Program-made: the position numbers and the translations under genes
Notes under the pieces: model-generated
The model's input: the letters and a program-made list of their open reading frames with translations, nothing else
Told to the model about the DNA's origin: nothing
Databases searched by the model: none
Origin: Oscillospiraceae bacterium
Lineage (GTDB): Bacteria; Bacillota; Clostridia; Oscillospirales; Acutalibacteraceae
Length of the DNA: 64,000 bases
NCBI GenBank assembly: GCA_015066015.1
Contig: SVPE01000003.1
Coordinates: 1-64,000, forward strand
Reading direction: 5' to 3'
Shown here: piece by piece, positions 3,026 through 21,352 of the stretch
Numbering within the stretch: position 1 is the stretch's first letter
How the letters are laid out: each line of letters begins with the position of its first letter

Positions 3026-3956
3026 AAGTCAAAATCTCTTTTGCAATAAATATTGGTCTGTCTTTTACCTGAGTATGTATCTTGCCCAGATAATATCCGA
3101 TAATACCAAGGAAGACACAGATTATCGCGCCTGCAAAGAAAACAGAAGCCGCAATAAAGCCGTAAAGCATCAGAACAGGTGCAAGCAAAGCGCCTATGCA
3201 ACCTATGGAGAAGAATATAACCGAAAGTACTCCCATAGCAATACCGAAATACAAGGGCATTTTAAGCGGTGCGTCCGTATATGCGATAATTCCGTCAAGG
3301 GCATATTTGAGAAGCTTTGTGAAATTCCATTTGGTTTCTCCGCTTTCTCTTTCCTTTACCTCGTAGGGTATTGCCTTTGTATTATAGCCTACCCAGGAGA
3401 AAATACCCTTTGAGAAACGGTGATATTCGGGAAGCGAAAGAATAGTTTTCACTACGCTCTGTCTCATAGTGCGGAAGTCACTGGCATCACTGATGAAGTC
3501 AACCTCCGTAACCTTGTTGATTGTTTTATAGAACATAGTTTTACAGGCAGTGATAAACTTGCCCTCCTTACGCTTTTCCTGAAAAGCCGCAACCATATCA
3601 CAATCAGGGTCTTCGTCAAGGATTCTGCCCATCTCAACGGCATAGAGAGGATCCTGCTGAAGGTCAGCGTCAATTATTGTAACGTACTCCCCTACGGCCT
3701 CGGTGAAACCTGCATACATAGCAGCCTCCTTACCGAAATTTCTGGAAAAGTTTATAACCTTGATTCTGACATCCTTATTCTCATTGAAAATCTTTCTGAG
3801 CTTTTTCGGAGTCTCGTCACGGCTGCCGTCGTTAACGAAAATTATCTCATAATCATCTGTATATCCCGTCATCGCCTTTTTTGTAACCTCGAGGAATTTT
3901 TCGACGTTTCCCTCTTCGTTATAGCAAGGCACAATAAGAGAGTGCTTGATTTTCAT
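3009..3956 (-). CDS. GT2 glycosyltransferase, GtrB/CsbB-like polyprenyl-phosphate sugar transferase
   Basis: A 315-aa GT-A enzyme: N-terminal catalytic domain with SLIVPCYNEEGNVEKF (about 5-20), NDGSRDET (about 44-51) and the metal-binding DADLQQDP (about 94-101), a lipid-interface region with KWNFTKLLKYALDGI (about 210), and two C-terminal membrane helices (about 230-255 and 265-290). This layout is that of enzymes that load a sugar from a nucleotide sugar onto undecaprenyl phosphate at the inner face. I place the start at ATG 3956 because AAGGA lies eight bases upstream; the ATG at 3965 overlaps that ribosome binding site. It lies between YfhO (27 bases upstream) and GtrA (17-base overlap). 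Confidence 0.92.
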   Translation of the reverse strand: MKIKHSLIVPCYNEEGNVEKFLEVTKKAMTGYTDDYEIIFVNDGSRDETPKKLRKIFNENKDVRIKVINFSRNFGKEAAMYAGFTEAVGEYVTIIDADLQQDPLYAVEMGRILDEDPDCDMVAAFQEKRKEGKFITACKTMFYKTINKVTEVDFISDASDFRTMRQSVVKTILSLPEYHRFSKGIFSWVGYNTKAIPYEVKERESGETKWNFTKLLKYALDGIIAYTDAPLKMPLYFGIAMGVLSVIFFSIGCIGALLAPVLMLYGFIAASVFFAGAIICVFLGIIGYYLGKIHTQVKDRPIFIAKEILTYDDKD

Positions 3957-18341: not shown

Positions 18342-19358
18342 TTATATAATCGCAAAATATTTCATTGCAAATACTATCAGGTAAATTGTAAACATTGAGA
18401 TGACGCTTGTCCACACAACAAGCTGACCTGCCAGCTGCTCATCACCGCCGATTTCACCGACCATTACGGCACTTGAAACCGCAGTAGGTGTGGCAAAAAG
18501 TGATATCAGTGCAGGATACTCAATTTCCGAGAAGCTGAACAAATCTGTAAATTCACTTAAAATAATCGCGCCTCCGAGACCGATAAACGGAGCCATAACC
18601 ACCCTCATAACCGTGCCTGAGATGATTTCCTTTTTAAGCGAGCTGACTGCCTTGAAGTCAAATCTTGCACCAAGGACAACAAGGGCAAGAGGTGAAGCGA
18701 CTGCTGATAAATTCTTCAGCGCCTTATAGAAAAACGGGATGTTGTTTTCGATTGTAAACACAGGCATTCCCGACTCACCTACAGGGATAAACGAACGGAC
18801 AACAAGTGCCGCAATACCGACAAACACGCCGATAATCAGCGGATTCTTCACAGTCTTTCTGAGAGTGTCCGTAATTGTGTTCTTATTACTGTTCTCCTGT
18901 GCATAATGTGAAAGAAGGATAACCGCCAGGCAATTGAACATGGGCACTGCTACAGCCGAAAGCACAGAAGCAAAGGCAACCGCCTCTTCACCGCCCAGAG
19001 AAAGTGCAAGCGGAATTCCGATTATAGCATAATTTGAACGGAATGAACACTGAGCAAGGACACCGAGCTGACTACGCTTTTTTGTAATAACGTGTGCAAG
19101 AGCATAACCGCAAAGAAAAATAACAAGTATTGCCGCGACGCAATAAAGCACCGCTTTGAAATTAAGGCTTTTAAGCGAGTCAATTTCATAGATATTTATA
19201 AAAAGCAGCACCGGGAGGAAAAGCTTGAACACCATTGTGTTTGCTTTTTTAAAGAAGGCATCATCTGCAAATCTGATTACCCTGAGAAAATATCCCAGAA
19301 AAACAAGAAGGAGAATAGGCATAACTGCATTAAATGAAAACATAAATATTTCGCCCAT
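18342..19358 (-). CDS. AEC-family transporter (auxin efflux carrier type)
   Basis: A 338-aa membrane protein with about ten helices, two inverted halves and the family feature of a GxP-like break (FATPTAVSSAVMVGEIGGD near the C-terminus, LGYFLRVIRFADDAFFKKANTMVF near the N-terminus split across residues 17-40). AEC carriers in bacteria export or import small organic acids such as malate. The start at ATG 19358 is preceded by AGGGGGG seven bases upstream; a start at 19382 has none. It heads a transcript with GH27 and has its own promoter at 19392. The substrate is unknown; a sugar-acid or fermentation acid is plausible. Confidence 0.85.
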   Translation of the reverse strand: MGEIFMFSFNAVMPILLLVFLGYFLRVIRFADDAFFKKANTMVFKLFLPVLLFINIYEIDSLKSLNFKAVLYCVAAILVIFLCGYALAHVITKKRSQLGVLAQCSFRSNYAIIGIPLALSLGGEEAVAFASVLSAVAVPMFNCLAVILLSHYAQENSNKNTITDTLRKTVKNPLIIGVFVGIAALVVRSFIPVGESGMPVFTIENNIPFFYKALKNLSAVASPLALVVLGARFDFKAVSSLKKEIISGTVMRVVMAPFIGLGGAIILSEFTDLFSFSEIEYPALISLFATPTAVSSAVMVGEIGGDEQLAGQLVVWTSVISMFTIYLIVFAMKYFAII

Positions 19359-19391
19359 TGACTTGCCCCCCTTCTTTTGCATATTTTTATA

Positions 19392-19400
19392 ATTATAGCA
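19392..19400 (-). promoter_or_regulatory. extended -10 promoter of AEC-GH27
   Basis: On the minus strand, TGCTATAAT (19392-19400) is a perfect extended -10 element, with no clear -35 at 17 bases. The start site is near 19385, 27 bases before the start codon. Two direct copies of ATTTCGAAAAAA (19405-19416 and 19435-19446, plus strand), exactly 30 bases apart, lie at and above the -35 position and may be regulator sites. Confidence 0.6.
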
Positions 19401-19404
19401 CAGT

Positions 19405-19446
19405 ATTTCGAAAAAATCTATTTATATGCTAATAATTTCGAAAAAA
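19405..19446. promoter_or_regulatory. two direct repeats ATTTCGAAAAAA, 30 bases apart
   Basis: Twelve-base identical copies at 19405-19416 and 19435-19446 (plus strand reading). The centre-to-centre distance of 30 bases puts both on the same DNA face. The first copy covers the -35 region of the AEC promoter. I infer a regulator binding site; no regulator gene is adjacent. Confidence 0.4.
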
Positions 19447-19498
19447 CATTTAATTTTTATATGATATACGGGATTCAATTGCAGGTGTGTGGTGACGG

Positions 19499-19733
19499 CT
19501 GATGCGGGAAGGCACTTTGTCCGAAGGGGTGACGACTAAGGTCTGCCCGACCGGAAATGTCGCCCGCGTTCTTGCAGAAATACGCAGCAAAAAGGTACAG
19601 CGGTCGTCACCCCTTGGGCAAAGCCGCGGCAGCGCATCAGGCAGCGGGACGGTTTTCTTTGCGGTGGCAGGCGGTCGGCGCCTGATGCACTGTCGCGGGC
19701 ACCGTGAAACGGTGCTGCCTTCCCGTACATCGG
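19499..19733. other. GC-rich four-helix palindromic element (candidate structured RNA or cruciform repeat)
   Basis: No real ORF. Almost every base pairs in one nested scheme. P1: 19499-19504 with 19728-19733 (one G-T) and 19505-19514 with 19716-19725 (ten perfect pairs). Inside it sit three hairpins with no more than two bases between them. P2: 19516-19519 with 19619-19622, 19521-19522 with 19617-19618, and 19524-19536 with 19603-19615 (13 perfect pairs). P3: 19624-19632 with 19690-19698 and 19634-19642 with 19680-19688 (18 pairs, one G-T, one 1x1 mismatch). P4: 19699-19705 with 19709-19715. The P2 loop contains CCGACCG (19547-19553) complementary to CGGTCGG in the P3 loop (19672-19678). No promoter is seen on either strand. 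It lies between the putP terminator and the AEC promoter, and its GC content is well above its AT-rich surroundings. It may be a structured RNA or a mobile palindromic repeat. Confidence 0.7.
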
Positions 19734-19744
19734 ATAAGCATCAA

Positions 19745-19796
19745 CAAAAAAACAGATGCATTCCGCAGTGTAATACACCTTGAAATACATCTGTTT
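19745..19796 (-). terminator. rho-independent terminator of putP
   Basis: A 15-base-pair stem (19750-19764 with 19782-19796, two G-T pairs) followed on the minus strand by a run of T. The apical part can pair further (GTGTA with TACAC). It lies about 57 bases after the putP stop codon. Confidence 0.85.
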
Positions 19797-19852
19797 AAAA
19801 TCTGTGGTCAGGTTACGCTTAACGGAAAGCACCGCTAAGACTGTATAATCTG

Positions 19853-21352
19853 TTATTCTTCGTAAGAAGCAGAGGTTGCTGTTTCAAACAGCTTAATTAC
19901 TTCCTTCGAAGGAGCTTTGTCAATCAGGCTGACAACTACACAGGCAATAAGGCCTGCAATAAAGCCGGGAAGGATTTCGTAAATTCCGGTTGAAGCTGTA
20001 AGGAACATCAGCCAGAGAACATCAACTACCGCACCGCATACAACACCTGCTATAGCTCCCTTATAGGTTGTTCTCTTCCAGAAGAGCGAAAGAATAATAA
20101 CCGGACCGAAGGAGGCACCGAAACCGCCCCATGCATTTTCAACCATATTCATAATTGCCTGGGCGCCGCTACCCTCACTGTTAGCAATAAAGAAAGCTAC
20201 TACTGCAACAACTACTACTACCAATCTGCCTATCCAGAGTGTCTCTTTATCGGATGCGTTCTTTCTGAAAACTGCCTTATAAATATCACTTGTGAAGGAT
20301 GAAGAAGCAACAAGAAGCTGTGAATCGGCTGTACTCATAGCAGCCGCAACAATAGCCGAAAGAAGAAGACCTGCAATAAATCCGGGGAAAAGCTCTGTTA
20401 CAAGCTCAATAAAGATGCTTGCCTGCTTACCTTCGGCAACAAGCTCTGCGCCCATCATCATTCTGCCTAAAATGGCGATTACAATAGCTGCACCGAGTGA
20501 AAGAACAACCCATACAATCGCTACGATCGAAGATGTCTTGATCATTGATGCCTTCTTGATTGACATAAATCTTACAAGGATATGAGGCATACCGAAGTAA
20601 CCGAGTCCCCATGCAAGACCCGAGATGATATCCTGAGGCTTTGCATCAAAAGGATTAGCGCCGAATGTATTCATTACACCGTCTGTGCCGATAAAGTTAA
20701 GAGCTGCTGTATCAAGCTCCTTGGTAAGAAGGATGACCACCGGAACTGCAAGAAGAGCTACAAGCATCATAAGACCCTGGAAAAAGTCTGTCCAGCAAAC
20801 AGCCTTGAATCCACCGGAGAAGGTGTACGCAATAATAATAACCGCAAAGATAAGCAGTGCTACGCTCTCCTTACCCTGAAGCTGGGGAACAACAGATGTA
20901 AGAACCGTTGCACCTGCAACAAAGCTCGAAGCAACATAAACCGTAAAGAAAACAAGAAATACGATTGCACAAATAATCTGAAGTGCGGGGCTTGTTGCAA
21001 GGAAGCGGTTTGTCATATACTGAGGCAATGTGATCGAATCATTTGCTGCCTTTGAGAATTTACGAAGTCGCTTTGCAACAAAAATCCAGTTTGCAATTGT
21101 ACCGAGTGCGAGTCCGATACCTATCCAGACCTGACCCATACCGAAGGCAAGTATACTTCCGGGGAAGCCCATAAGAAGCCATCCGCTCATATCAGAGGCC
21201 TGAGCGCTCATTGCTGTTACCCAAGGACCCATTGAACGTCCGCCCAGGAAGTAATCCTTATCACCGCCGTCTTTGCTGCGTAACATAAAGAATACTCCTA
21301 TGCCGAGCACAAGTACAAAATAAAGAACAAATGCTAAAAGTTGTGAAGTCAT
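19853..21352 (-). CDS. putP: sodium/proline symporter PutP
   Basis: A 499-aa sodium:solute symporter (SSS family) with about 13 helices. PutP landmarks: DYFLGGRSMGPWVTAMSAQASDMSGWLLMGFPG in the first two helices (read in parts: LGGRSMGP at 36-43, SDMSGWL at 52-58), YTFSGGFKAVCWTDFFQG (about 189-206), ISGLAWGLGYFGMPHILVRFM (about 243-263) and AAAMSTADSQLLVASS (about 335-350), which contains the Na2-site serine and threonine. Takes up proline with sodium. AAAGGAG precedes the ATG. Monocistronic with own promoter and terminator. Confidence 0.96.
   Translation of the reverse strand: MTSQLLAFVLYFVLVLGIGVFFMLRSKDGGDKDYFLGGRSMGPWVTAMSAQASDMSGWLLMGFPGSILAFGMGQVWIGIGLALGTIANWIFVAKRLRKFSKAANDSITLPQYMTNRFLATSPALQIICAIVFLVFFTVYVASSFVAGATVLTSVVPQLQGKESVALLIFAVIIIAYTFSGGFKAVCWTDFFQGLMMLVALLAVPVVILLTKELDTAALNFIGTDGVMNTFGANPFDAKPQDIISGLAWGLGYFGMPHILVRFMSIKKASMIKTSSIVAIVWVVLSLGAAIVIAILGRMMMGAELVAEGKQASIFIELVTELFPGFIAGLLLSAIVAAAMSTADSQLLVASSSFTSDIYKAVFRKNASDKETLWIGRLVVVVVAVVAFFIANSEGSGAQAIMNMVENAWGGFGASFGPVIILSLFWKRTTYKGAIAGVVCGAVVDVLWLMFLTASTGIYEILPGFIAGLIACVVVSLIDKAPSKEVIKLFETATSASYEE

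Follow-up and report, generated by a model that had tools for sequence, protein, structure and literature searches.

A GC-rich intergenic element in an Oscillospiraceae genome is probably a diverged copy of an interspersed DNA repeat with the geometry of a closed four-way junction

The described systems closest to the locus reported here are families of short repeats that lie between bacterial genes. REPs and REPINs are palindromes scattered outside genes, and their movement is attributed to RAYT (TnpA-REP) transposases acting in trans; as portrayed in PMC3733652, the REPs are palindromes of 20-40 bp, most of them with a GTAG or CGTC tag. Bacterial MITEs are short and non-autonomous; they lie between genes, carry terminal inverted repeats and fold into stable secondary structures, and PMC10969869 characterizes them by direct repeats at their ends and a typically AT-rich composition. 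The intergenic repeat families bcr1-bcr18 are restricted to the Bacillus cereus group; in the account of PMC3446304 some are MITE-like, some have a conserved secondary structure and some are interpreted as RNA elements.

The cloverleaf repeats described below resemble each of these in part. They differ from REPs and REPINs in that every copy comprises three hairpins and a closing stem, sealed into a four-way junction, in that no tag is shared, and in that no intact RAYT-type Y1 transposase was found in their genome (91% complete). Unlike MITEs, they are GC-rich and without clear direct repeats, and across species it is their geometry rather than their sequence that is kept; nor did we find a closed four-way junction described for bcr1-bcr18 in PMC3446304. 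The fully paired four-way junction is common to the cloverleaves and to Holliday junctions, but here the predicted junction is encoded in one strand by palindromes instead of being formed by recombination, and enzyme binding is an analogy. The open-licence literature yielded no description of four-way-junction or cloverleaf repeats, and the words “cloverleaf”, “branched” and “cruciform” are absent from the main text of a stem-loop survey of 40 bacterial genomes (PMC2267715). We file these sequences as a kind of interspersed extragenic palindromic repeat with an unusual conservation rule.

The element from which the analysis starts lies at 19499-19733 of the window, by which we mean the whole 64,000-nucleotide stretch of contig SVPE01000003.1 that was analysed. 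The original prediction had drawn here four helices, P1 to P4, in a segment richer in GC than its flanks. Its coordinates, helices and GC content are all confirmed. The minimum free energy (MFE) of the + strand is -133 kcal/mol, compared with -93.5 +/- 4.5 for 200 dinucleotide shuffles (z -8.7), and that of the - strand is -120.6 kcal/mol (z -8.4); none of the 200 shuffles reaches the value of either strand. In a sliding fold of the window, the element is the largest outlier for its own GC content, and in the minimum-energy fold its junction joins three branches with 0 unpaired bases. The features of the locus are as follows, R1 being the covariance model of the repeat family introduced below.

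19499..19514, + strand: P1, the closing stem, 5' strand (MFE fold; R1 positions 1-11 align at 19504-19514)
19515..19623, + strand: P2 hairpin, 109 nt (MFE fold, R1 alignment)
19624..19698, + strand: P3 hairpin, 75 nt, opposite P1 (MFE fold, R1 alignment)
19699..19715, + strand: P4 hairpin, a stem of 7 pairs with a 3-nt loop (MFE fold, R1 alignment)
19716..19733, + strand: P1, 3' strand, with a two-base bulge at 19726-19727 (MFE fold)
19438..19465, + strand: weak sigma-70-like site TCGAAA-16-TATGAT pointing into the element, possibly a chance occurrence
18342..19382, - strand: flanking gene, Mem_trans membrane transporter (PF03547, E 3.2e-23)
19853..21352, - strand: flanking gene, sodium:solute symporter (PF00474, E 5.4e-88)
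19744..19797, - strand: terminator-like hairpin and T-run after the symporter gene (by eye)

P1 comprises 16 pairs, with 19499-19504 and 19505-19514 pairing to 19716-19725 and 19728-19733. The base of P2 is CTTTG/CAAAG, common to many copies of the family, followed by GGGGTGACGAC/GTCGTCACCCC, and an apical stretch of ~65 nt enlarges this hairpin. The aligned arms of P3 are separated by 37 nt, compared with 12 model positions in R1, and P3 is, by eye, without the A-tract and T-tract of most copies, tracts that do not define the family as a whole. A loop-loop contact had been proposed between the heptamers CCGACCG and CGGTCGG in the distal loops of P2 and P3. The two are exact complements, but shuffled loop sequences reach a complementarity of at least 7 in 267 of 1000 trials, so the match is at chance level, and the fold engages part of each heptamer in other pairings. 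The element can still be called non-coding, since its two overlapping ORFs (93 and 98 aa) are without a Pfam match at E <= 0.001. The accompanying statement that neither strand has a promoter fails for the + strand, where the weak site at 19438-19465 is present; promoter-like sites in 19200-20000 number 4, against 1.2 +/- 1.1 in shuffles.

A terminator scan around the element, restricted to loops of 3-8, reported none. In the relative G031 (locus L033), a hairpin similar to that at 19744..19797 precedes the transporter gene, and this terminator-like hairpin and the TATAAT region of the transporter are kept, while by eye the next gene differs. Neither G031 nor G014, the two nearest relatives by transporter protein, has an element upstream of the same gene. 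Since the upstream gene differs in both of these loci (by eye), loss of the element or rearrangement is possible. We folded the transporter upstream regions of 25 other genus members, the transporter protein having no match at E <= 1e-40 in 8 of 34 genus genomes. Five of the regions (L032, L033, L034, L048 and L051) were examined as letters and contain no homologous element; the remainder were assessed by fold score only. We note that in G004 the region upstream of this transporter gene includes, at L034:780-1000, an inverted repeat that is long and AT-rich (CCAAACAAATCTTAATAACAAAG ... CTTTTGTGATTAAGATTTGTTTGG).

By sequence, the element stands alone. A blastn search of its own genome returns only the element itself, 147 genomes of relatives return nothing beyond matches of 16-32 bp, and plasmids and phages return no match; the short matches, folded with their surroundings, form no cloverleaf. 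The motif AAGGGGTGACGAC, allowed 2 mismatches, was rejected as a marker, with 48 sites against 43 for the reversed control, and eight of its sites that were examined show no cloverleaf besides the window element. Rfam 15 at curated thresholds reports tRNAs and nothing else, both for the window and for six copy-bearing stretches, so that the Rfam search gives no match for the element. Because blastn showed one copy, another 400 kb of the same genome was folded. Most of the strongest peaks there belong to one kind of cloverleaf, a unit with a closing stem and exactly three abutting hairpins, and mostly with 0 or two unpaired bases at the junction. Homologues with compensatory changes and further copies in the host, which the original prediction had named as its check, are thus found, but only when they are sought by structure.

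The usual unit in this genome is ~120 bp long. Its P1 is typically GCGGGGAGGC/GCCTCCCCGC; P2 has ~12 pairs and frequently begins CTTTGGCTTTCC; P3 has ~20 pairs and a loop of ~8; and P4 has 8 pairs and a 3-nt loop. R1 was built from an alignment of 22 copies, the window element being left out. It matches the window element at 19504-19726 (+) over all model positions 1-119, with 47.2 bits (E 7.3e-8 in 64 kb; 5.3e-7 over 464 kb), and this is the only match in the 64 kb window at E <= 10. When a 601-base stretch is searched with filters off, the full-length match is absent and only partial ones of <=19.2 bits appear, presumably because the enlarged P2 runs into a length limit of this search mode. 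Over the whole genome, R1 gives 113 listed matches at E <= 1, both strands counted, from 150 scored candidates of 1143, and the window element is absent among the matches listed. Matches on the reverse strand of one site being counted once, these yield at least 64 separate sites (weakest E 1.7e-4), 22 of them seeds. Two candidates found by fold only (L076:10717-10867 and L060:96-202) and R1 matches with E >= 0.06 are left out of this count.

The 64 copies are all distinct in sequence and occur in both orientations. All 64 fold with exactly three branches, a count that leans upward because R1 selects for shape, and the unpaired junction bases number 0 in 34 copies, 2 in 23 and another value in 7. 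In every copy P1 forms a terminal inverted repeat of 8-11 bp, and only 4 copies are spanned by a called ORF. The hairpins of one copy are inherited together (Mantel r 0.48-0.56, reached by none of 500 permutations; n 59, five copies with a hairpin of >=75 nt being left out). The window element is an outlier in this family, with 47 bits where most copies score 80-132 and with both P2 and P3 enlarged. Sequence is the usual basis on which repeat families are defined, and a class of this kind is easily missed in that way: single-copy by blastn, the window element has at least 63 relatives by structure in the same genome.

Two observations concern the surroundings of the copies. About ten lie within a longer shared repeat, with ~130 nt on one side and AATTCACAATTCACAATTG-like sequence on the other (loci including L075:8200-8500, L060:7900-8300 and L073:15300-15700), and at L072:14160-14420 the flank of this longer repeat occurs without a cloverleaf. 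On contig C2 of G000 (200,858 bases), no cloverleaf match is listed where ~five would be expected at the genome average of one per ~37 kb; the copies may be unevenly spread, or the contig may be foreign to the assembly.

Beyond this genome, sequence and geometry part ways. Strong R1 matches (E <= 1e-5) occur in 1 of 200 family genomes, namely this species, in a search whose filters were stricter and which scored 18 candidates in each genome (by the rows shown), so that weak relatives would be lost. Within the genus of 34, three other genomes have one weak match each (36.6-40.1 bits). That in G028 is paired throughout; that in G018 closes by letters into P1 and three hairpins, though the alignment marks some non-standard pairs; and that in G019 has more mismatches. 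We also used a shape detector that employs no family sequence and accepts any branch number >=2. At its loose setting, the 464 kb of our own genome give 28 three-branch, 3 two-branch and 2 four-branch elements, and their shuffles 2 two-branch ones; 40 further genus stretches (634,866 bases) give 12 three-branch, 17 two-branch and 1 four-branch, and their shuffles 3, 7 and 1, respectively. The strict setting (<=2 unpaired bases at the junction, >=78% paired, <=-0.55 kcal per base), which was fixed after the loose output had been seen, returns 23 elements in 400 kb of our own genome and 10 in 1,285,422 bases of other genus members, with none in 330,537 bases of other genera of the family and none in shuffles. 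All 33 strict elements have exactly three branches.

The ten strict elements outside our own genome lie in G028 (3), G003 (2), G024 (2), G004, G018 and G019, six of the 33 other genus members, from which samples of ~4-156 kb apiece were covered. One of the G003 elements is similar to those of G028, and no likeness is apparent by eye between the other species. The same geometry, in different sequence, is therefore present in other species of the genus. The G018 match of R1 is unlisted by the shape detector, and the window element itself passes the loose setting and fails the strict one (fraction paired 0.75). In 50 kb of E. coli, no element is found even at the loose setting. A simple sequence marker proved unsuitable: the pattern GGCGGGA...TCCCGCC matches 87 of 250 family genomes, its reversed control hits many as well, and no strict element lies in the 91,275 bases of loci retrieved. 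A pattern scan of genome contigs gave two matches, in Peribacillus and Thermus, neither of which matches R1 at E <= 1.

We conclude, with a probability of roughly 0.65, that the window segment belongs, as a copy that has diverged and grown, to an interspersed and non-autonomous DNA repeat shaped as a closed four-way-junction cloverleaf. The best reading of the family as a whole is an undescribed class of non-autonomous repeats whose closed four-way junction is maintained at the DNA level.

A different emphasis would make these units host-useful two-way terminators, or gene-end insulators, that multiplied, the cross shape being secondary. Here P3 carries the evidence. By its letters it resembles an intrinsic terminator in either direction in 49 of the 64 copies, which have the A4...T4 polarity; the reversed polarity is found in none, and A4...T4 in P2 or P4 in none of the 64, while P2 shows the reverse, non-terminator polarity T4...A4 in 16. 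Because copies share ancestry, fewer than 49 of these cases are independent. Hairpins with an A-tract and T-tract also occur in the elements of G028, G003 and G024, but the tracts are absent in the window, G018 and G019 elements and reversed in that of G004 (by eye). In rough ORF calls, the gaps that hold copies are 21 convergent, 35 tandem and 5 divergent, with 3 copies dropped as having no classifiable neighbour, whereas background gaps over 80 bp are 42 convergent, 86 tandem and 35 divergent. Divergent gaps thus hold 5 of 61 classified copies against 35 of 163 in the background, as terminators would, but rarity near promoters is expected for any tolerated insertion. One hairpin, moreover, suffices for a terminator, and a closed four-way junction is unneeded. 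We regard termination as the primary identity of these units as unlikely; the A4...T4 polarity of P3 rather suggests a two-way intrinsic terminator as a second role of the repeat.

The units might also be ordinary MITEs, shrunken remnants of a DDE-type insertion sequence with short terminal inverted repeats. They are indeed short, high in copy number and mostly intergenic, they have a terminal inverted repeat of ~10 bp, and strong R1 matches are confined to one species among those searched. The flanks and ends tell against this. No clear excess of target-site duplication is seen in the 64 copies, where the commonest flanking match, of 4 bases with the element's own end bases counted, occurs in 6, compared with up to 4 in the printed shuffles. 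In 464 kb, blastn at E <= 1e-3 finds no cut-down copy of the cloverleaf, and no longer or autonomous element with the same ends is in evidence; in fact, 44 of the 49 GGGGAGGC sites lie inside cloverleaves. The internal sequence, finally, consists of three hairpins, and a MITE of the ordinary kind is accordingly a decidedly improbable description.

The RAYT transposase class is not known to produce target duplications, of which the cloverleaves show no clear sign either. In this genome, however, Y1 transposase is represented by one 98-aa remnant, with no cloverleaf in its 3.2 kb locus, and IS110 is found neither here (91% complete) nor in G028 (87% complete), in which Y1 was not found either. 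Y1 and IS110 are thus unsupported as movers in these two genomes. Since G003 has both Y1 and IS110, and G004, G018, G019 and G024 have Y1, these enzymes may still have a part in some other element-bearing species. A G-rich left-hand tag was likewise rejected as a shared mark, as it is clear only in a recent subfamily, and neither base counts of the flanks nor their listing revealed a tag common to all copies.

The changes between copies bear on whether the structure belongs to DNA or to RNA. Among the 22 seeds of R1, 35 of 51 pairs have changed on both sides, and 93.7% of cells are paired, compared with 39-54% when partners are slid; the rows are related, and the cells are therefore not independent. 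Between copies 88-93% identical (44 pairs, not independent), the 124 stem pairs that changed comprise 82 full Watson-Crick double changes, 19 single changes to G-U, 22 to a mismatch and 1 other; between copies >=93% identical (15 pairs), 11 of 23 are full double changes. Copies of >=130 nt were left out of these counts. If mutations arose singly and independently, most changes between copies this close would be expected on one side of a pair only. Template switching in replication, in which one arm is copied onto the other, is a route to double changes proposed in PMC8794818. Given such rapid compensation and such a route, covariation alone is here no proof of RNA. A functional fold in a transcript would tolerate G-U on the sense strand, which the complementary strand would show as A-C mismatches; G-U pairs are as rare on one strand as on the other (78 of 3224 against 69 of 3227), with an excess on the first strand in 26 copies, on the second in 20 and on neither in 18, which argues for a structure in DNA rather than an RNA gene. 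The stability of the fold is also about equal on either strand, the lower energy falling on the orientation-A strand in 27 of 64 copies.

One structured non-coding RNA, or several related ones, acting as a transcribed cloverleaf would fit the very stable fold, the strong covariation and the weak promoter-like site upstream on the + strand, but we consider it very unlikely given the strand symmetry of G-U pairs and stability, the occurrence of both orientations, the missing Rfam match at curated thresholds and the position of the element as one of at least 64 interspersed copies. The original prediction had left the choice between a structured RNA and a DNA cruciform or mobile repeat; the RNA half is not supported, and the support for the other half extends to a repeat with structure at the DNA level and stops short of movement: target duplication is not clear, and repeated flanks within this genome yield no convincing clean empty site.

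For the closed DNA four-way junction, then, the copy number, geometry, compensatory changes, absence of strand bias and mostly intergenic placement of the copies are direct observations. How such a unit might persist can be sketched. It would act and spread as folded DNA, either single-stranded at the replication fork or as an extruded cruciform, and a candidate enzyme supplied in trans would read the junction rather than the sequence. The arms would be kept complementary largely by concerted change, as template switching in replication would give, and many resident copies may serve as two-way transcription terminators through P3. The absence of cut-down copies and of clear target duplication, together with the joint inheritance of the hairpins, suggests that each unit is copied, or lost, in one piece, which would fit a substrate made up of the entire cross. 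Junction-resolving enzymes recognize fully paired four-way junctions. Recognition of this shape would account for a junction and an arm number that stay fixed next to a sequence and apical lengths that drift; how long the arms can become is seen in the window element, whose P2 measures 109 nt and whose P3 measures 75 nt.

In its fullest form, the proposal is of a shape-defined mobile DNA: a sealed Holliday-type junction within a single strand, moved by a putative junction-reading enzyme, its sequence nearly free provided that the closing stem and the three perfect hairpins are retained, with species-specific versions in one genus. We offer this as a tentative possibility, doubtful as it stands. 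If the geometry is selected, enzymes that bind four-way junctions are the obvious candidates, and the elements are natural test substrates. The cloverleaves are also a natural experiment on how palindromes stay perfect: about two thirds of the changed stem pairs at 88-93% identity being double changes, they bear on whether covariation always means a selected RNA structure, a question to which the template-switching account of PMC8794818 speaks.

Other hairpin repeats were seen in the course of this work. The same genome holds a second structured family, with a GCTTGTCGAAAAG...CTTTTCGACAAGC hairpin and a long terminal hairpin, at L063:13561-13860, L077:4261-4560 and L069:3036-3393; a part of 115-145 bp occurs at 7 listed places with 89-99% identity. 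Arrays of short hairpins with ATGAAATA- or ATGAAGT-like linkers, a style of hairpin repeat that differs from the cloverleaves, lie at L226:212-333 and 3405-3526 (G006), at L145:1122-1244 (G031) and, in our own genome, at L074:8860-8950. In G047, an 85-bp palindromic repeat, GGCGGGAT...GGTCTCC..GGAGACC...ATCCCGCC, is found for example at C55:23924-24008, and its pattern has 11 matches in that genome, compared with 1 for the reversed control.
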